Positions 32,535 to 64,000 of a stretch of 64,000 nt of DNA are shown here, piece by piece. Positions within the stretch are counted from its first letter, which is position 1. Every line of letters starts with the position of its first letter. The stretch is from positions 1 through 64,000 of the forward strand of contig NZ_LMQC01000007.1 of NCBI RefSeq assembly GCF_001424485.1. Reading direction: 5' to 3'. Under the pieces are notes generated by a model. That model was given only the letters and a program-made list of their open reading frames with translations, ran no database searches and had not been told where the DNA came from. Made by a program: the position numbers and the translations under genes. Source of the DNA: Modestobacter sp. Leaf380 (GTDB taxonomy: Bacteria; Actinomycetota; Actinomycetes; Mycobacteriales; Geodermatophilaceae).

Positions 32535-32550
32535 TCGAACAGGTGTTCGT
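32535..32550. promoter_or_regulatory. LexA-binding SOS box upstream of recA
   Basis: TCGAACAGGTGTTCGT matches the actinobacterial/Gram-positive SOS box (TCGAACnnnnGTTCGA) in 15 of 16 aligned positions. It lies about 145 bp upstream of the recA ATG. A very similar box precedes lexA. Confidence 0.9.
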
Positions 32551-32609: not shown

Positions 32610-32632
32610 TTGTCGGACCCCCGCCCTAACGT
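32610..32632 (+). promoter_or_regulatory. RecA-NDp/PafBC-type promoter of recA
   Basis: TTGTCGGACCC, six bases, then TAACGT. This is the LexA-independent DNA-damage promoter layout described for mycobacterial recA (TTGTCRGTGGC-N6-TAGGGT). It lies downstream of the SOS box and 62 bp before the recA ATG, so recA would have both controls. Confidence 0.75.
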
Positions 32633-56911: not shown

Positions 56912-57234
56912 CTACTCGATGTCGGGAAGTACGAGACGCATGTCGAAGGTCGGCCGGTACTGGGCTTGGTCGTCGAGTTCGATGCAACCCATGTTCCCGA
57001 GCGCGCCGAGCGGGAGTTTCTCCTGCTGACCGACGTTGCGGTGGAACACCGGCTCGCTGTTTGGTGATGCGCCGGAGGGTGTGGGCCTGCGATGCCTTGA
57101 GGCCGGAGGTCGTGGTCTGGAGCCGACCGATGGCCTGGCCCAGCGACTTTGCTGAGTCTTCCAGGAGTTCGAGGACCGCGCCTAAGGGGCCGAGGCTGCG
57201 ATCTTGCTGCTGCAGCAGGACATGAGCCCGCGCT
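56912..57234 (-). pseudogene. Decayed minus-strand gene fragment
   Basis: On the minus strand an open frame reads HVLLQQQDRSLGPLGAVLEL then LEDSAKSLGQAIGRLQTTTSG and LKASQAHTLRRITK, a helical region. About 57075-57090 the coding signal shifts to another frame reading PNSEPVFHRNVGQQEKLPLG, ALGNMGCIELDDQAQYRPTF and DMRLVLPDIE, ending in TAG at 56912. Both parts use GC3-rich codons. They look like one gene's C-terminus broken by a frameshift. I do not recognise the family. The right limit, where the plus-strand remnant begins, is uncertain. Confidence 0.4.
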
Positions 57235-58241
57235 CCGACGCGCCTCGCATCCTCTTCCCGCGTCTGGACAAGCAGATCCAGCCGCAGCCGTTCACTCTGT
57301 CTGACGTTGCCGATGACGACGCCCGCCTCGGTGGCCTGAACTATCGGTCGGAGATCGCCAGCCCGCTCGACCGGGTCGGTCTCGTCGCTGAGCGCCGCGG
57401 CGAGGTCATCGACGTCACCCCGCGCAAACAGGCCGAAGACATCGCCGCCAGCCAGGAGATGCTGCCGGTCATCGACCTCATCACCGAGATGACCGGCCGA
57501 GTCCTCGGAAGCGGACTCGTCATCCCCGAGACGAAAGAAAAGAACGCCGTCCGCCGCCTCACCCGGGCGTTCCTTGCGGGGGCCGGAGTGGACGACCCTG
57601 AGACGGCCGAGTGGTCACAGCGCCGCGTCCAGGCCGCCACTGACGCGTTCCTTCACCTGGCCCGGGAGAAGCACAAGAACCGGCCTAGCGGCATTGTCGA
57701 AAAGATCGAGCCGATCGGCTACCCGCCGAGCACCCTGCCGTCGATCACCGAAACCCTCGACCGGTACACCGTCAAGAACGCGGCCACCTTCGTCCCCGGC
57801 AAGCCCTACACCGGCTGGACCAAGAGCATCCTGCCCGCCGCCGCCTTCGACGCCTACAGCACCGAGTACCGGCTCGCCGACCTCCTCGACTCCGCCCCCG
57901 AGATCACCTGGTGGGTCCGCGTCCTGCCCAACTACGGCGCCTACCTCAACTACGGCGCCAACCAGCGCTACATCCCAGACTTCATCGCCGTCGCCATCGC
58001 CATCGCCATCGCCATCGCCATCGACATAGACGGCATTCACTGGCTCATCGAAGGCAAGGCCGACGTCCGCGCCAGTGACAGGGACGTCCTCGCGAAAAAG
58101 GAAACAGCCGAACGCTGGGTCCGGCACGTCAACGACAGTGGTGAAGTCGATGCCGAATGGCGATACCTGTTCGCCACCGAGACCAACGTCAAGCACGCCG
58201 CCGGATCATGGACCGGACTTCGGCAGGTGACCGGCTCGTGA
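57222..58241 (+). pseudogene. C-terminal remnant of a DEAD/DEAH helicase-nuclease (type III restriction Res-like)
   Basis: The roughly 340 residues resemble only the C-terminal part of a Res-type helicase. The end carries a PD-(D/E)xK-like nuclease: YIPDF, then WLIEGKAD, with KKETAERW after it. No Walker A, DEAD box or motif VI remains, whereas full-length relatives exceed 800 residues. ATG 57222 (AGGA upstream) or TTG 57204 could start it, so a truncated protein may be made. The helicase part is missing where the minus-strand remnant abuts. A hexanucleotide repeat interrupts the nuclease core. Confidence 0.6.
57993..58022. repeat. GCCATC hexanucleotide microsatellite inside the nuclease motif
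   Basis: Five perfect tandem GCCATC copies encode Ala-Ile dipeptides between PDF and ExK of the preceding remnant. Being a multiple of three, copy-number changes keep the frame. Confidence 0.9.
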
Positions 58242-58272
58242 GCCCGCGGCTAACGGTTTATCGGCGCACCCG

Positions 58273-58836
58273 ATGCGAACTCGGCGACAGCGGATGACCG
58301 CTACACCGCCATGTACGCCAGCCACGAGCGGCGAGTCCGACGCCTTCACGGTTCAGGCCCGCTGGCTGTTGGAGTGGCACAACAAGCGCAACGACGGCTT
58401 TTCCACCCGCTCGGTCGCCATCCTCGGCTTCGCCGGCGTCATTCTCGCCTTGCTGCCCCGAGGTCTCGACCTCACCGGTCCCCTGGAGATGACCGGGGGT
58501 ATCCGGGCCTGCCTTATCGCGACCGCCGGATTCCTGCTCCTGACCGCGACGTTCTGCCTCCTCGTGCTGGCCCCGCAGAAGTCGAATGCCCCGAGTATCC
58601 GGCACCTGCGTGAGCAGTGGCGCAAGTACATCGACGCTAAGGACGGCCCGCCGCCGCAAGCGCAGATCACCGAGGGGCTCCTCCATGGCCAGTCAGTGGA
58701 AGCGAGCAGTCCACTCGACCTGGTGTTCCGCGAGGCGAACCGGCGGGGCCGATGGTTCGCCGTCGCCGTTCTGTCGCTGGGCGCGGCCCTCTTCAGCCTC
58801 GCCGCGCTGGTCGTACAGGTCTTCTGGCAGATGTGA
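58273..58836 (+). CDS. Three-helix membrane protein of defence-effector style
   Basis: The 187-residue protein has a short helix (FTVQARWLLEWHNKRNDGFSTR), two adjacent membrane helices (SVAILGFAGVILALLPRGL; ACLIATAGFLLLTATFCLLVL), a soluble helical stretch of about 60 residues and a third membrane helix (WFAVAVLSLGAALFSLAALVVQVFW). This layout is reminiscent of Pycsar/SLATT-type membrane effectors, but no specific family is claimed. ATG 58294 would shorten it by 7 residues. It lies 31 nt after the helicase remnant. Confidence 0.65.
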   Translation: MRTRRQRMTATPPCTPATSGESDAFTVQARWLLEWHNKRNDGFSTRSVAILGFAGVILALLPRGLDLTGPLEMTGGIRACLIATAGFLLLTATFCLLVLAPQKSNAPSIRHLREQWRKYIDAKDGPPPQAQITEGLLHGQSVEASSPLDLVFREANRRGRWFAVAVLSLGAALFSLAALVVQVFWQM

Positions 58837-58847
58837 GGGGGTGTCAC

Positions 58848-58970
58848 ATGAGCGCGCAGCAGCCGAAGCCGGAGCCGACTCCGCCGCCCCGCGAGCCGAT
58901 GAAACTCGATCCGCCTGAAGTCGACTGGTTCACCAAGAACAAGAACCCGCGAGACATCGAGCGTCGCTGA
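58848..58970 (+). CDS. 40-residue proline-rich protein
   Basis: An ATG 11 nt after the membrane-protein stop, with GAGGGGG 7-13 nt upstream, opens a 40-codon frame: MSAQQPKPEPTPPPREPM, KLDPPEVDWFTKNKNPRDIE and RR. The composition is Pro/Lys/Glu-rich with no hydrophobic core. A good ribosome site and a terminator directly after it support expression. Function unknown; it could be a partner of the membrane protein. Confidence 0.55.
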   Translation: MSAQQPKPEPTPPPREPMKLDPPEVDWFTKNKNPRDIERR

Positions 58971-58973
58971 GAA

Positions 58974-59011
58974 CGGGCGGGCTGCCCACCGTGCGCGGCG
59001 CAGCCCGCCCG
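58974..59011. terminator. Terminator separating the membrane-protein unit from the TIR operon
   Basis: Twelve-base perfect arms (CGGGCGGGCTGC and GCAGCCCGCCCG) with a 14-nt loop start 3 nt after the small ORF's stop. The TIR operon's own promoter follows. Confidence 0.8.
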
Positions 59012-59058
59012 CCTTGCGAACCGGCAGGTCAGCCGCTGTTTGCTCCGGCTGCCCGATT

Positions 59059-59081
59059 CTGTCGGTGCCCTGCTCTAGCGT
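59059..59081 (+). promoter_or_regulatory. RecA-NDp/PafBC-type promoter of the TIR operon
   Basis: CTGTCGGTGCC, exactly six bases, then TAGCGT. Against TTGTCRGTGGC-N6-TAGGGT this is 9 of 11 plus 5 of 6 matches. The -10 ends 53 bp before the TIR ATG. The motif is a closer fit to the mycobacterial consensus than the host's own recA copy. Confidence 0.7.
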
Positions 59082-59134
59082 CCCGACCGTCAGCGTCACA
59101 CCGCCCCGGCGGTACGGAGCAGAGGGGCACCCAC

Positions 59135-59623
59135 ATGGCTCGATCGTCGTTCGTCAGTTTCCACTACCAGAACGATTACTGGCGGGTCCAGCAAATCCTG
59201 CGGATGGGCGCCGTCGAAGGGCAGGAGATCCTGCCCGCCCAGAACTGGGAAGCCGTGAAGGCGCGCGGTCGCCAGGCCGTCCAGGACTGGATTGACAAGG
59301 AGATGTCCTACAAGGGCGCTGTCGTCGTCCTCATCGGTTCCCAGACCGCGTCCCGCGAGTGGGTGAAGTATGAGATCAAGAAGGCATGGGCATCCCGGAA
59401 GCCGCTCCTCGGGATCAACATCCACGGACTCAAGGACAAGGACGGGTACACCTCTACCGCCGGAGCAAACCCCTTCTCCCAGTTCGGCTTCAGCGACAGC
59501 AACAAGACCTACGCCGACTACGTGCCGGTCAACAACCCGACGGGCTATGACAGCACCCAGGTCTACGCCAGCATCAAGAACAACATCGAGTCGTGGATCG
59601 CCAGCGGCTACAAGCGGCCCTGA
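59135..59623 (+). CDS. TIR-like (MTH538/ThsB-type) protein
   Basis: The 162-residue single-domain protein begins MARSSFVSFHYQNDYWRVQQ and contains VVVLIGSQTASREWVKYEIK (about 63-82), then LLGINIHGLKDKDGY and ANPF. From memory this runs parallel to Bacillus ThsB of Thoeris; E80 in WVKYEI falls where ThsB has its essential E85. ThsB proteins turn NAD+ into cyclic-ADP-ribose-type signals on phage infection. ATG 59135 has AGAGGGGC upstream. It is first in a tight operon (HIT 3 nt later). No ThsA (SIR2-SLOG or macro-TM) is nearby. The signal product is unproven. Confidence 0.88.
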   Translation: MARSSFVSFHYQNDYWRVQQILRMGAVEGQEILPAQNWEAVKARGRQAVQDWIDKEMSYKGAVVVLIGSQTASREWVKYEIKKAWASRKPLLGINIHGLKDKDGYTSTAGANPFSQFGFSDSNKTYADYVPVNNPTGYDSTQVYASIKNNIESWIASGYKRP

Positions 59624-59625
59624 CA

Positions 59626-60078
59626 ATGCGCGCCGACCCCGACTGCGACTTCTGCCAGATCGTCACCCATGAGGAACCAGCCCGCGAGGTCCTCCGGACG
59701 GGCAAGGTAGTCGCGTTCTTCCCGCTAGAACCGGCCACCCTCGGGCACACCATGATCATTCCTCGCGAGCACATCCCCGACATCTGGTCACTCGACGACC
59801 AGACCGCCCGCGACCTGGCCGACGCCACCCTGCGCGTCGCCCGCGCCATCCGAGCGGCTGTCCCATTGGACGGTCTCAACATCATCCAGTCCAACGGCGA
59901 GGCAGCCACACAGAGCGTCTTCCACCTGCATGTACACGTCGTTCCCCGCCGTACCGACGACGCGATGGGTCCCATCTGGCCAGCAGAAACCCACTGGAGC
60001 GAGAAGAACAAAAGCGACGCTCAAGGCAGAATCCGCGCCGCCCTCGCCCTGGGTGCAGGGGAAGAAGGCTCCCCATGA
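59626..60078 (+). CDS. HIT family nucleotide hydrolase/transferase
   Basis: The 150-residue protein has an intact histidine triad HLHVHVVPR and the N-terminal CDFCQIV with LRTGKVVAFFPLEPATLGHTMIIPREHI. HIT proteins cleave or transfer nucleotidyl groups on substrates such as AppppA, ApppA or AMP conjugates. It lies 2 nt after the TIR stop and overlaps the next ATG by 4 nt. In this operon it may process or remove the TIR-made nucleotide; that is inference. It could be a captured housekeeping gene. Confidence 0.9.
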   Translation: MRADPDCDFCQIVTHEEPAREVLRTGKVVAFFPLEPATLGHTMIIPREHIPDIWSLDDQTARDLADATLRVARAIRAAVPLDGLNIIQSNGEAATQSVFHLHVHVVPRRTDDAMGPIWPAETHWSEKNKSDAQGRIRAALALGAGEEGSP

Positions 60079-60506
60079 GCAGCAGCCCCGTCGCTCGGGC
60101 TTCCGATCCCGAGGACCGCAGGAAGCATCTGGACTACGTCCAAGCGGTCATTGCCCGACTCTCGCAATCTTCAGCGACTGCCAAAGGCTGGAGCCTTACT
60201 ATCGCCGGAGCCGCTTTCGGGTTCTCCGCAGTCATCGAGCGCTGGTACCTCGCACTCCTGGGCTTGGCCATCATCATCTCGTTCTCGATCCTCGACATGT
60301 ATTACCTCTACGAGGAACGCCTGTTCCGGTGCCTCTACAACGGCGTCGTTGCCGGAACCGTCCCGTCGTACTCCATGGACAAGAACGTGTTCAAGGACCA
60401 AGCGTCCAGGCTGGACACCTACACGTCCTGGTCAGTCCTCGGGTTCTACGCCCCGCTTACGGTCGCCGGGACCGCCGTCACCGGAATCTCAGTCCTGACC
60501 GGATGA
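60075..60506 (+). CDS. Three-helix membrane protein, candidate effector of the TIR operon
   Basis: The 143-residue protein starts with a soluble helix (DRRKHLDYVQAVIARLSQSSATAKGWS). A membrane hairpin follows (LTIAGAAFGFSAVI; WYLALLGLAIIISFSILDMYYLYEERLFRCLY), then a loop with SYSMDKN and a last helix (SWSVLGFYAPLTVAGTAVTGISVL). The KGWS...LDMYYLYEERLFR pattern is familiar to me from membrane proteins encoded beside TIR-like genes in defence islands. The ATG overlaps the HIT stop (ATGA). A membrane-disrupting effector triggered by a TIR product is the working idea. Confidence 0.75.
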   Translation: MSSSPVARASDPEDRRKHLDYVQAVIARLSQSSATAKGWSLTIAGAAFGFSAVIERWYLALLGLAIIISFSILDMYYLYEERLFRCLYNGVVAGTVPSYSMDKNVFKDQASRLDTYTSWSVLGFYAPLTVAGTAVTGISVLTG

Positions 60507-60518
60507 CCGGAAGCGGCG

Positions 60519-60857
60519 ATGATCCCTGACGCCTACACGCTCACATTCCTGCTCGTACTCGCCGAGTTCAACTCCGACGACGGGCATCACTCCATCATGT
60601 GGATGGATGAGGAAAGCGCCGAATACTGGGAGGCGCCGTACGCGGGTGCATGCTGGCCGTGCAAACGGGTCCGTGACGACGCGGTCTACCGGGGCCGCCC
60701 GGTCCCTGGCATGACCGTCCCAGAGGCGCACGCGATTCCCTACTGGCGTCCCGTGCACGACGGAGCCGACGCTGTCGCCTTTCTCCGCGAGCACAGCGGC
60801 TGTGGAGAAACCCCGCCGGCGCTGCGGTCGAGCGGGAGTGTTGGTGACGCGCCGTAG
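60519..60857 (+). CDS. Unknown protein at the end of the TIR operon
   Basis: The 112-residue protein starts at ATG 60519, 12 nt after the membrane gene, with GGAAG upstream. It is rich in Trp, Tyr, His and acidic residues, with two Cys in GACWPCKRV and no membrane helix. The tail after residue 90 (HSGCGETPPALRSSGSVGDAP) may be disordered. I recognise no family. Its spacing suggests co-transcription with the TIR, HIT and membrane genes. Confidence 0.5.
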   Translation: MIPDAYTLTFLLVLAEFNSDDGHHSIMWMDEESAEYWEAPYAGACWPCKRVRDDAVYRGRPVPGMTVPEAHAIPYWRPVHDGADAVAFLREHSGCGETPPALRSSGSVGDAP

Positions 60858-60879
60858 GTGCACACCTGGCGAAGGCCAA

Positions 60880-61134
60880 TCAGCATCCGCCTCGGTCGGC
60901 GACCTCCGCGAGAGACGTGGGCGAGCCGGTGGAGCCGCCGGAGTCGAGCCGCTCCGCCAGGTCTCCAGCCGTACGAGGCATGAACGTCGCCGCCTGCCGG
61001 TCAAACCGCATGCTGACGATGGCGTTCCGCGCCGCCTTATCGGTGAGTGCCGCATCCCCGTACGGGACCGCCACCGCCAACGCGTCGATGTCGTGAATGT
61101 CGTTGGCCGTCCAGTTGCTGGACGCCGCATCCCG
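60880..61134 (-). pseudogene. C-terminal fragment of a PIN-like or related gene
   Basis: Directly after the AlbA_2 stop codon, and in the same frame, 84 codons read through ANDIHDIDALAVAVPYGDAA, LTDKAARNAIVSMRFDRQAA and TFMPRTAGDLAERLDS to a TGA. There is no good start. The DIDxLAVAVPYxD...DLAE pattern recalls C-termini of PIN-type or host-island hypothetical proteins. It looks like a leftover 3' end fused to the end of the neighbour. Family assignment is tentative. Confidence 0.45.
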
Positions 61135-62439
61135 TCAGTCGGCGAGTTGCCACTGAAGAATGATCTCCTCGGCATCGAGCGATGATGTGACCCCCGCCTG
61201 ATTGACCGCGTCCCGCACCAGGTCCAGCCAAGTGGTCAACGCCTGATCACGGCCGCCGTCAACCAAGACGGGTCCGTCCACCGGTGCATAGCCGAGCACC
61301 CGGTGCGATTCGTCGAAGGGCAGGAACTCGTTGATATGCGGGTCGAGCCGCCGGAACACTTGCGTCGAAGGCTCGACGGCGATTCGTGCGCTGTAGTCAC
61401 CGGTGACGCCAAGTGCCGTTCTCGCGGTCCAGAGCAACGCGAAGAACTCAAGGCCGGTCTGCTCGATGTCGGCGAGGGCGACTTCGCCCCGCTGCGTCTC
61501 GCCGCGAAAGAATCCGTCCCGGGTGAATGCCATCGCGACGGTTCCGTCGCCGTGAACCTCGACCCGAGCCCGCGGAGTAGCGCCGCCTGCCTGGGAGACC
61601 GGCTGACGACCGAAGCGGTAATACCGCTGAAGTCCACGGCGGGTGACCTCATTGCCAGTAAGCAACCTCGGACCCATCTTCTGACCCACCGGCCAACGCC
61701 AAGCCCGCTCGATGATCCGGTTAGCCCGGTCCAACCGCAGGTCCCGTGGCCGGTGAAGCGGCGTCTCCGGCACCGCCATCGCCACGATCCAGTTCACCCC
61801 CTCGGCGACGCCACATGAAGCGACGAACCGGTCAAATCGATCGTTGAAGTTCTCCCGCCGCTTTCGGTGTCCCGCCTCACGGGCCCGGTAGGCGTCCGCG
61901 ATCTGCCGCTCGACCATCCATTCGGTGTCCGGCCCATGTCGGTAAGGGACGCCGAACCAGTCGTCGGTGTTCCTCGGGTGGACAAGGTGAGGCGCATCCG
62001 GGCTGTCCGGAACAAGGAGAATCAGGACGCCCTGCTCAGGGTCGTCTGCCGGGGCAAGTGGCCGCAGATCCAGGCCAGTGACCGGCGGATAGATCAGGTT
62101 CCCGGCGACCTGACGAATCGAGCGGGACGTGCCCTCATCCACCGGACCCGCAGGGACCACATGGTCCGCAGCCGAGGTTCCCTCAATCCGAGCCTCCGCT
62201 ACGCCGTAAACAATCATCCCGCCGCCGCTGTTCGCCATCGCCGCGATGTCCTTGGCCAGTTCAGCCTGCTGGGCCACCTTCTTCTGCTTGTCCTCCGACG
62301 TGGCGGTTAGAGGGAGTTGCTGCTTCCAATCCAGATCGGCGCGCTCGGTCACCCGGTTCTCGCAGGCCCGCTCGATCAGCCCGAAGTCCAGCGTGGTCCC
62401 GACATCTCCCAATGCGGCGTGCAGCGGCGTCCGTGGCAT
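61135..62439 (-). CDS. Schlafen AlbA_2 domain protein
   Basis: The 434-residue protein has an N-terminal AlbA_2 domain (about 18-170). ERADLDWKQQLPL gives the acidic E-x-LDxK signature; AKDIAAMANSGGGMIVYGVAE is the glycine-rich strand-loop; HPRNTDDWFGVPYRHG follows. The remaining 260 residues are unique to me. AlbA_2/Schlafen-type domains occur in RNA- or DNA-targeting proteins and in many defence loci. It starts at an ATG and is divergent from the MBL gene. Codon use is less GC-biased than in the core chromosome. Confidence 0.8.
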   Translation of the reverse strand: MPRTPLHAALGDVGTTLDFGLIERACENRVTERADLDWKQQLPLTATSEDKQKKVAQQAELAKDIAAMANSGGGMIVYGVAEARIEGTSAADHVVPAGPVDEGTSRSIRQVAGNLIYPPVTGLDLRPLAPADDPEQGVLILLVPDSPDAPHLVHPRNTDDWFGVPYRHGPDTEWMVERQIADAYRAREAGHRKRRENFNDRFDRFVASCGVAEGVNWIVAMAVPETPLHRPRDLRLDRANRIIERAWRWPVGQKMGPRLLTGNEVTRRGLQRYYRFGRQPVSQAGGATPRARVEVHGDGTVAMAFTRDGFFRGETQRGEVALADIEQTGLEFFALLWTARTALGVTGDYSARIAVEPSTQVFRRLDPHINEFLPFDESHRVLGYAPVDGPVLVDGGRDQALTTWLDLVRDAVNQAGVTSSLDAEEIILQWQLAD

Positions 62440-62522
62440 GAGGGCACGGTAGGGCCCGCGCCGACGTCAGCCCGACCTTGAGGCGAGTCGCTGTCCTCCA
62501 CCTTCCCCGAAAGGGCCGCCAA

Positions 62523-62545
62523 CTGTCAGTACCCGCCGCTACGGT
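62523..62545 (+). promoter_or_regulatory. RecA-NDp/PafBC-type promoter of the MBL gene
   Basis: CTGTCAGTACC, exactly six bases, then TACGGT. Against TTGTCRGTGGC-N6-TAGGGT this is 8 of 11 plus 5 of 6. The -10 ends 36 bp before the MBL ATG. Confidence 0.6.
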
Positions 62546-62581
62546 CCTGGCTGGGGCACCATCCAACGGCGAGGAGACGCA

Positions 62582-63589
62582 ATGATCGACATCGACTTCC
62601 TGTGGGTCGGGGAGAAGCAGAAGACAGGGGACGCCATCACCTGTCAGTTCACCGACCCCTCCACGGGGCAGGACGTCGTAATCGTGATCGACGGAGGGTT
62701 CGCTGACGACGGCTCACGCATCGCCAGCCACGTCCGCAGGTACTACGGAACAGACCGGGTCGACCTGGTGATCTGCACCCATCCCGATGACGACCACATC
62801 CGCGGGCTGTTCGGCGTGATTGAGGAACTAGACGTTGCCCGCCTCCTCATCCACCGACCCTCGGCCTACGGTTACACCGGGGACGACGTCAAAGCCACCC
62901 TTGTCGATGACCTCATCGCCACCGCGCGCGGATGCGGAACCGCAGTCGATCACGGTTTCGCGGGGACGACCTACTTCGGTGGGGCACTGACGATCGCTGG
63001 ACCGTCGGAGTCCTACTACCGGCAACTGCTGGAGGAGCAGGTCCAATACGGCAGTCTGACCGCGTCCATCGGCCGTGCGTTCTCCAAGGCCGCGAGCAGC
63101 GTCATGGAGGCCATTCGCAGCCTCGTGAGCGACCCGGGCGAAACGATGACCGACGACAATGGTGGAACCACGCCCCGCAACAACAGCAGCGTCATTACGA
63201 ACCTGGCCGTCGATGGATACCGAGCACTGTTCACCGGGGACGCAGGGGTGCCCGCCCTCAACCAAGCGGCCGACCACCTCGACCTCGCAGGAAAGTCAGC
63301 CACCATCGACTTCTTGGACGTCCCCCACCACGGTTCCCGGCACAACCTTGACCCACAGACGCTGGACCGACTCCTAGGGCCAATCGTCGGGGACCTCCAG
63401 TACGGCTCCGCGTTCGTCTCCGTAGGCAAGGAGGCTGACGACTTCCCGCGGCCCGAGGTGGCAAACGCCATCAGACGCCGCGGATACCCGGTGTCCGCAA
63501 CTCGGGGACAGAGCATCAGGTGGAACCGCGGCGGCTACCTGAGACCGGACTACAGCGCTCTCACGCCGATCGGCTGGCTCGCCGAGTGA
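62582..63589 (+). CDS. Metallo-beta-lactamase-fold hydrolase (ComEC/Rec2-like)
   Basis: The 335-residue protein has the metal motif THPDDDH (about 61-67), IDGGFADDG, NNSSVITNL, LFTGDAG and VPHHGSRHN, the ComEC-type MBL series. There is no membrane part, so it is a soluble hydrolase. Such proteins recur in defence islands, for example as the MBL subunit of some AVAST systems. ATG 62582 has GGCGAGGAG upstream. It is followed 10 nt later by a membrane-protein gene. Confidence 0.88.
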   Translation: MIDIDFLWVGEKQKTGDAITCQFTDPSTGQDVVIVIDGGFADDGSRIASHVRRYYGTDRVDLVICTHPDDDHIRGLFGVIEELDVARLLIHRPSAYGYTGDDVKATLVDDLIATARGCGTAVDHGFAGTTYFGGALTIAGPSESYYRQLLEEQVQYGSLTASIGRAFSKAASSVMEAIRSLVSDPGETMTDDNGGTTPRNNSSVITNLAVDGYRALFTGDAGVPALNQAADHLDLAGKSATIDFLDVPHHGSRHNLDPQTLDRLLGPIVGDLQYGSAFVSVGKEADDFPRPEVANAIRRRGYPVSATRGQSIRWNRGGYLRPDYSALTPIGWLAE

Positions 63590-63599
63590 CCCGCTGACA

Positions 63600-64000
63600 A
63601 TGGATGCATACGAGCGCAAAGCACGCCTCTACCCGGCAGCCGTGGTCATCTTTCCTCTGACCCTCCTTGGCCTTCTACTCTTCAGCCTCCCGGATTGGTG
63701 GAAGGGTCTCGCCACCTTCGCCGCGGCTGGCGGACTTCACTTCCCCGTCATGCACCTGGTTCGAGACCGAGGGAGCAGCAAGCAGAGCGCTCTTTGGGTG
63801 TCCTGGGGCGGCCCGCCGACGACCGCGCTGCTCCGCTGGACGGGGAAGACGAACACCATCCAGCAGCAGCAGCGTCATGCGGCAGTCGCCAGAGCGACCG
63901 GCTACAGCCTCCCGTCGTCCGAGGATGAGGCCGCAAACCCCACTGAGGCAGATGCCATCTACGAGGCTGCGGTCGATGCACTGCGCACTAAGACTCGGGG
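63600..64000 (+). CDS. Membrane protein paired with the MBL gene (partial, cut by window edge)
   Basis: The first 133 residues are visible: MDAYERKARLYPAAVVIFPL, two close hydrophobic helices (TLLGLLLFSLPDWWKGL; TFAAAGGLHFPVMHLV), then a soluble part with SALWVSWGGPPTTALLRWTG, AAVARATGYSLPSSEDEA and NPTEADAIYEAAVDALRTKT. I recall a defence-island family with the same YERKARLYP...WGGxPTT...LRxxTR pattern, without a known function. The frame is open to the window end. It is probably the effector or anchor partner of the MBL protein; that is inference. Confidence 0.75.
   Translation, partial: MDAYERKARLYPAAVVIFPLTLLGLLLFSLPDWWKGLATFAAAGGLHFPVMHLVRDRGSSKQSALWVSWGGPPTTALLRWTGKTNTIQQQQRHAAVARATGYSLPSSEDEAANPTEADAIYEAAVDALRTKTR

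Follow-up and report, generated by a model that had tools for sequence, protein, structure and literature searches.

PafBC-type promoter sites suggest that DNA damage arms TIR-type immune operons in actinobacteria

The published consensus of LexA/RecA-independent DNA-damage promoters is tTGTCRgtg-8nt-TannnT (PMC5656591). In M. smegmatis, PafBC is activated by single-stranded DNA (ssDNA) on its WYL domains, binds the sigma-A RNA polymerase and contacts the -26 element (PMC11804915). As of 2023, no WYL transcription factor had been described as regulating phage defence in Actinobacteria (PMC10693628). An abortive-type immune operon burdens its cell, which raises the question of how it stays silent before it is needed; the answers known from other phyla are local ssDNA-responsive regulators. 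A DNA-damage-activated pair of regulators, CapK+CapS, reportedly precedes 12 operons of type IV Thoeris (PMC13373217). Here we describe a stretch of 64,000 nucleotides from Modestobacter sp. Leaf380 (the window), in which a PafBC-type promoter site at positions 59059-59081 of the forward strand lies before an operon encoding a ThsB-type TIR protein, a HIT-family protein and a small membrane protein, referred to as 2TM.

The site has the sequence CTGTCGGTGCCCTGCTCTAGCGT, which parses as TGTCGGTG-N8-TAGCGT. It combines TGTCRGTG, a spacer of 8 nucleotides and TANNNT just 5′ of a gene, and its sole mismatch to the consensus is C in place of T at the weak first base. The end of the -10 hexamer is 53 base pairs (bp) from the ATG of the TIR gene (59135). 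Both the exact spacing of a damage promoter and the distance of 53 bp had been claimed in the original prediction, and both are borne out. The sequence and its setting make it highly probable that 59059-59081 is a PafBC-dependent sigma-A promoter that would arm the TIR-HIT-2TM operon for immunity upon DNA damage, with signalling from NAD+ and 2TM as the effector.

Genome-wide counts were obtained by pattern searches of the 4.76 Mb Geodermatophilaceae genome, whose relatives are Klenkia and Blastococcus, and matrix scans were made on a 260 kb sample. The exact string of 59059-59081 is found once in the genome. The core TGTCRGTG-N8-TANNNT has 13 matches compared to one for the reversed control, and in 114 genomes of the family the corresponding numbers are 957 and 17. 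Of the other 12 sites, most lie directly before genes, recognized by eye from their translations as rnhB, a yloV-type gene, ligA, rnj, scpA, an isochorismatase-like gene and others, several of them for DNA repair; the downstream genes of two of the 12 sites are not clear from the translations. Genes of the yloV type are usually located upstream of recG. A weight matrix was built from the 12 other sites and the P1 promoter of recA, excluding the TIR site, which scores 24.5 bits on it. Scores this high are absent from 519,428 sampled genome positions and from 39,956,000 Markov-simulated positions. The matrix score is not fully independent, since the consensus also served to select the sites of the matrix, but the counts against the reversed control are. 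A 23.1-bit match in the random genome sample turned out to precede sbcD, and no site with up to two mismatches was found among 130 sampled genes of the same genome.

The scoring and genome scan called for in the original prediction thus yield no equal of the TIR site in the sample. A similar density of equally scoring sites in coding DNA, named there as the outcome that would speak against a promoter, is not what the counts show, as nearly all matches in the genome precede genes. A single site with a partly degenerate motif could be a chance match in a GC-rich genome, but this is extremely improbable given the sampled and simulated scores, the conservation of the site in homologues and its recurrence before other ThsB-TIR genes, though not in non-actinobacteria. 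We conclude that the promoter site is real and well beyond chance.

The regulatory context fits. In the window, a LexA box and a PafBC-type P1 promoter stand in tandem before recA (Table 1). The first in-frame GTG (32578) of the listed recA open reading frame is upstream of P1, so the true start of recA must be further downstream. Two adjacent WYL genes on contig C21, one of them with HTH_PafC, WYL and WCX domains, were taken as pafB and pafC, which gives the genome both PafB and PafC. The predicted PafBC-type promoter on the TIR operon is accordingly supported by its match to the consensus, the counts against the control, recA P1 and the presence of pafBC. ClgR has been reported to recognize the same P1 motif, as cited in PMC5656591, and the site could then serve something other than PafBC-dependent damage induction. 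We regard this as unlikely, because TGTCRGTG at a spacing of 8 nucleotides is the published signature of damage promoters and because recA, ligA, rnhB and sbcD of this genome share it.

Similar sites recur before other ThsB-type TIR genes. We collected 81 ThsB_TIR (PF08937) loci besides the window's own family from three actinobacterial samples, and compared the 250 bp before the TIR domain with the other positions of the same loci. Sites with at most one mismatch occur seven times in 18,468 upstream positions and not at all in 498,932 positions elsewhere; with at most two mismatches the numbers are 12 and 24. The recurrent sites are located 33–91 bp before the start of the domain. Sorted by neighboring genes, the site is present in 8 of 17 TIR-HIT-2TM loci (including the four of the window's family), in 4 of 6 type IV (TIR-caspase) loci and in 3 of 56 others. 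Macro-domain Thoeris was considered as a third promoter class and rejected: only one of its eight loci has a site, a weak one with two mismatches, and none has a site with at most one. With the window's family excluded, TIR-HIT-2TM and type IV loci together have the site in 10 of 21 cases compared to 2 of 62 for the rest (p = 7e-6), counting in L142 and L175, which the tree places among TIR-HIT-2TM sequences but which were assigned to this class after the result had been seen; without the reassignment the numbers are 8 of 19 and 4 of 64 (p = 5e-4). On the tree of TIR-HIT-2TM TIR proteins the motif needs approximately five changes. Four actinobacterial type IV Thoeris operons with PafBC-type promoters (L225, L227, L198 and L197) encode a TIR protein and a caspase-like protease, and three of them also a small RyR-like protein.

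TIR homologues on plasmids, fetched with their annotation, served as a held-out set in which up to two mismatches were allowed. Among actinobacterial plasmid loci, 5 of 12 have a site, 44–63 bp upstream; the carriers are Rhodococcus ruber, Mycobacteroides chelonae, Mycolicibacterium vanbaalenii (two) and Rhodococcus opacus (a type IV locus). No site was found in 29 non-actinobacterial homologues at the same threshold (p = 0.001), eight of which have type IV-like TIR proteins 65–82% identical to the query. Such an actinobacteria-only pattern is as expected of a PafBC element if PafBC is essentially actinobacterial.

The promoter is also kept among close relatives. It is present 56–57 bp from the start codon in L019, whose TIR protein is 95% identical, and in L020 and L021 (75%), where the first base of the element is the consensus T. 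Identity within the promoter block is 25/27 compared to 105/145 in the adjacent non-coding DNA, a modest difference (p = 0.027) in which L020 and L021 represent one lineage. Upstream of 58869 the window is not homologous to these relatives until the helicase gene, which is truncated in the window. This implies that the neighborhood was altered but the operon kept its promoter. The stretch containing the site could alternatively be coding, as an in-frame GTG at 58991 extends the TIR reading frame through it; the frame 58991–59623 is open in the window and longer still in L019. This is most improbable, since homologues align from the ATG at 59135, which has a good ribosome-binding site before it, the upstream DNA contains many gaps between relatives, and the reading frame of L020 starts only seven codons upstream.

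A number of observations weigh against the PafBC reading. Besides the late class assignment of L142 and L175 and the modest footprint value, some of the positive upstream regions are mutually homologous (L141/L142/L173, L169/L175 and L124/L185), so that only about 10 independent lineages carry the site. It is absent from the TIR-HIT-2TM loci L111, L112, L143 and L170–L172, from the plasmid TIR-HIT-2TM loci of Arthrobacter, Rhodococcus p52, Dietzia and Gordonia, and from the more distant Geodermatophilaceae homologues L047 and L048 (47%). The presence of pafBC was checked in the window's genome only. As about half of the class members have no site, the control is recurrent, not universal.

In addition, the original prediction placed the site after a terminator. 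A strong hairpin (–36.9 kcal/mol, z –2.8) does lie upstream, but it lacks a T tract, and its counterparts in the relatives L019 and L020 are weaker (z –1.3 and –0.2), which makes it a plausible but only putative terminator. The positions of these features and of the genes are collected in Table 1.

Table 1 Sequence features of the window around the TIR operon and the reference and additional sites.
Feature	Position	Strand	Evidence or remark
LexA box CGAACAGGTGTTCG	32536..32549	+	Upstream of recA; reference site
recA P1 (PafBC-type) promoter TTGTCGGAC-N8-TAACGT	32610..32632	+	Reference site in the window
Type III restriction-type helicase remnant, 5′-truncated (C-terminal part left)	57204..58241	+	Intact (832–839 amino acids) in L019, L020 and L021 at the same place
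GC-rich hairpin, 12-bp stem, terminator-like	58974..59011	+	Between upstream small gene and promoter
Putative PafB-contacted -26 element CTGTCGGTG	59059..59067	+	Matches consensus tTGTCRgtg except at the first base; contact by analogy with M. smegmatis
-10 hexamer TAGCGT	59076..59081	+	Spacer exactly 8 nucleotides; predicted transcription start near 59088
Probable ribosome-binding region GAGCAGAGGGG	59117..59127	+	Sequence; kept in homologues
ThsB-type TIR, 162 amino acids	59135..59623	+	PF08937 (ThsB_TIR) 1.8e-23; PADLOC ThsB 1.7e-59, PDC-M50B 3.9e-52; 8wcf 8e-37
HIT-family protein, intact HLHVH triad (PADLOC ThsC)	59626..60078	+	PF01230 2.5e-21; ThsC2 5e-18
Small helical membrane protein (2TM; PDC-M50A 3.8e-26)	60075..60506	+	Hydropathy; AlphaFold mean pLDDT 81
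Fourth gene, 112 amino acids	60519..60857	+	79–85% in three close relatives
Second PafBC-like site CTGTCAGTA-N8-TACGGT	62523..62545	+	36 bp before MBL gene; suggestive only
MBL-fold protein, second defence-type operon (PDC-M48B/LmuA-like)	62582..63589	+	PADLOC 8e-59

The genes for TIR, HIT, 2TM and the 112-residue protein follow each other closely. The catalytic-type Glu80 (WVKYE) is invariant in ten aligned TIR proteins, and the solved chains closest to the TIR protein are 8wcf and ThsB1 9b7d. At 10 of 24 loci the HIT and membrane proteins form a single fused chain, which argues that both act together, and the HIT triad is present in all 24, which argues that the HIT enzyme is active. The AlphaFold model of 2TM consists of three long helices and gave no significant match in a structure search of the PDB. 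The fourth-gene protein has no match in Pfam or PADLOC. The same two collections reveal no gene for a ThsA effector (SIR2-SLOG, TM-macro or caspase-like) in the operon, and no Cap-type local regulator (CapW/BrxR, CapHP or CapKS) among the nine proteins scanned from 57204 to 63998. A LexA-box-like sequence inside the 2TM gene (GAACGCCTGTTC, 60315) was set aside as a probable chance match.

PDC-M50A and PDC-M50B occur in one operon with the HIT gene between them, and the TIR protein is over the PF08937 cut-off. From its sequence, the operon fits the PADLOC candidate system PDC-M50 plus ThsC; a literature search found no paper mentioning PDC-M50. Without a ThsA effector, the operon is Thoeris-like but is not filed as Thoeris. 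It probably makes an NAD-derived alarm signal. The authors of PADLOC proposed HIT as an off-switch (PMC8565338). In analogy to TM-macro ThsA (PMC11204291), HIT could alternatively be the effector part that senses the nucleotide.

HIT proteins also occur in housekeeping nucleotide metabolism, and the operon could be a repair or stress module instead of an immune one, which would explain its place in a damage regulon. This appears rather unlikely in view of the ThsB-class TIR protein, the adjoining restriction-type and AlbA-type genes, the carriage on plasmids and the PADLOC defence models, and also because type IV Thoeris, a published antiviral system, has the same promoter type. Assuming a PafBC-dependent immune operon, DNA damage, including that caused by phages, or phage replication would generate ssDNA that is bound by PafBC. 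As in M. smegmatis, the ssDNA-bound PafBC would dock on RNA polymerase, here at the TGTCGGTG element, and raise the amount of TIR-HIT-2TM transcript. On a separate infection trigger, the TIR protein would then convert NAD+ into a signal of the ADP-ribose type. This signal would be sensed or turned over by the HIT protein, which is often joined to the membrane protein, and the small membrane protein would be the effector. The level of expression and the activity of the enzyme are probably locked separately.

Other damage-type sites were seen in this and related genomes. The second PafBC-like site in the window, before the MBL gene, scores 15.4 bits, a level that approximately 8.6 sites per genome would reach by chance. 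On a Curtobacterium plasmid, the MBL homologue L257 has a similar site before it, and the Rhodococcus homologues L256, L258 and L259 have none. With a score near chance and a similar site in one of four plasmid homologues, we regard it as suggestive only and do not count it as a second example. A consensus PafBC site is located just 3′ of pafC (L011 and L078; C21:115399-115420, reverse strand), before an open reading frame of about 72 amino acids ahead of a tatA-like gene. Elsewhere in the genome (L107:10113-10135; C20:244113-244135, reverse strand), TTATCGGTG-N8-TAACGT is found 6 bp before a C5 DNA methyltransferase-like gene that adjoins a Vsr-like gene; the methyltransferase-like gene is possibly another foreign-DNA-related gene under PafBC. 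The composite site TGTCGGTGGTCGAACATACGAT is recurrent in Geodermatophilaceae genomes (e.g. G003, G006, G007, G009 and G013). In it, an apparent LexA box (GAACATAC) and the -10 of a PafBC promoter share part of their sequence, and dual LexA/PafBC control is possible.

According to the original prediction, no Thoeris-like locus had been described with this control. We found no paper tying PafBC to Thoeris or TIR operons within the open-access literature searched, where a workshop report alone contains both PafBC and TIR, but DNA-damage control of Thoeris as such is not new, since CapK+CapS precedes type IV operons (PMC13373217). Control of an immune operon by the host's global WYL activator appears to be new. 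The sequences suggest that DNA damage arms TIR-type immune operons across many actinobacteria. We think it likely that actinobacteria repeatedly plug Thoeris-like operons (TIR-HIT-2TM and type IV) into the global PafBC regulon by acquiring a promoter, so that ssDNA would pre-arm NAD+-signalling immunity, whereas other phyla use local regulators, e.g. CapK+CapS. If so, PafBC would be a WYL factor controlling phage defence in Actinobacteria, and any mobile operon could come under its control by gaining a short cis element. DNA-damaging drugs would then be predicted to alter phage resistance in actinobacteria, and scanning defence operons for PafBC promoters would be a simple screen.

The promoter resembles the mycobacterial PafBC or RecA-NDp (P1) promoters in its element, 8-nucleotide spacer and -10, in being of a type common to recA and repair genes, and in the presence of pafBC; it differs in that its target is an immune-type operon and in that PafBC dependence is presumed here. 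In CapW/BrxR, CapH+CapP and CapK+CapS, a DNA-damage or ssDNA signal likewise raises the expression of an immune operon, but these are dedicated local regulators that act via repression, whereas here a cis promoter would serve the host's global activator. The ThsB-type TIR, HIT and small membrane protein match the models of PADLOC "Thoeris type II" with ThsC and PDC-M50, but here there is no ThsA (SIR2-SLOG or TM-macro), and the effector candidate is 2TM, often fused to HIT. TM-macro (type II) Thoeris also combines a ThsB TIR with a membrane protein tied to a nucleotide-binding domain; in the present operon HIT replaces the macro domain, and the macro-type loci have no convincing PafBC site. 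Type IV Thoeris (TIR and caspase-like protease) has a different effector and is not the operon of the window, but it shares the promoter type in four of the six actinobacterial loci sampled.
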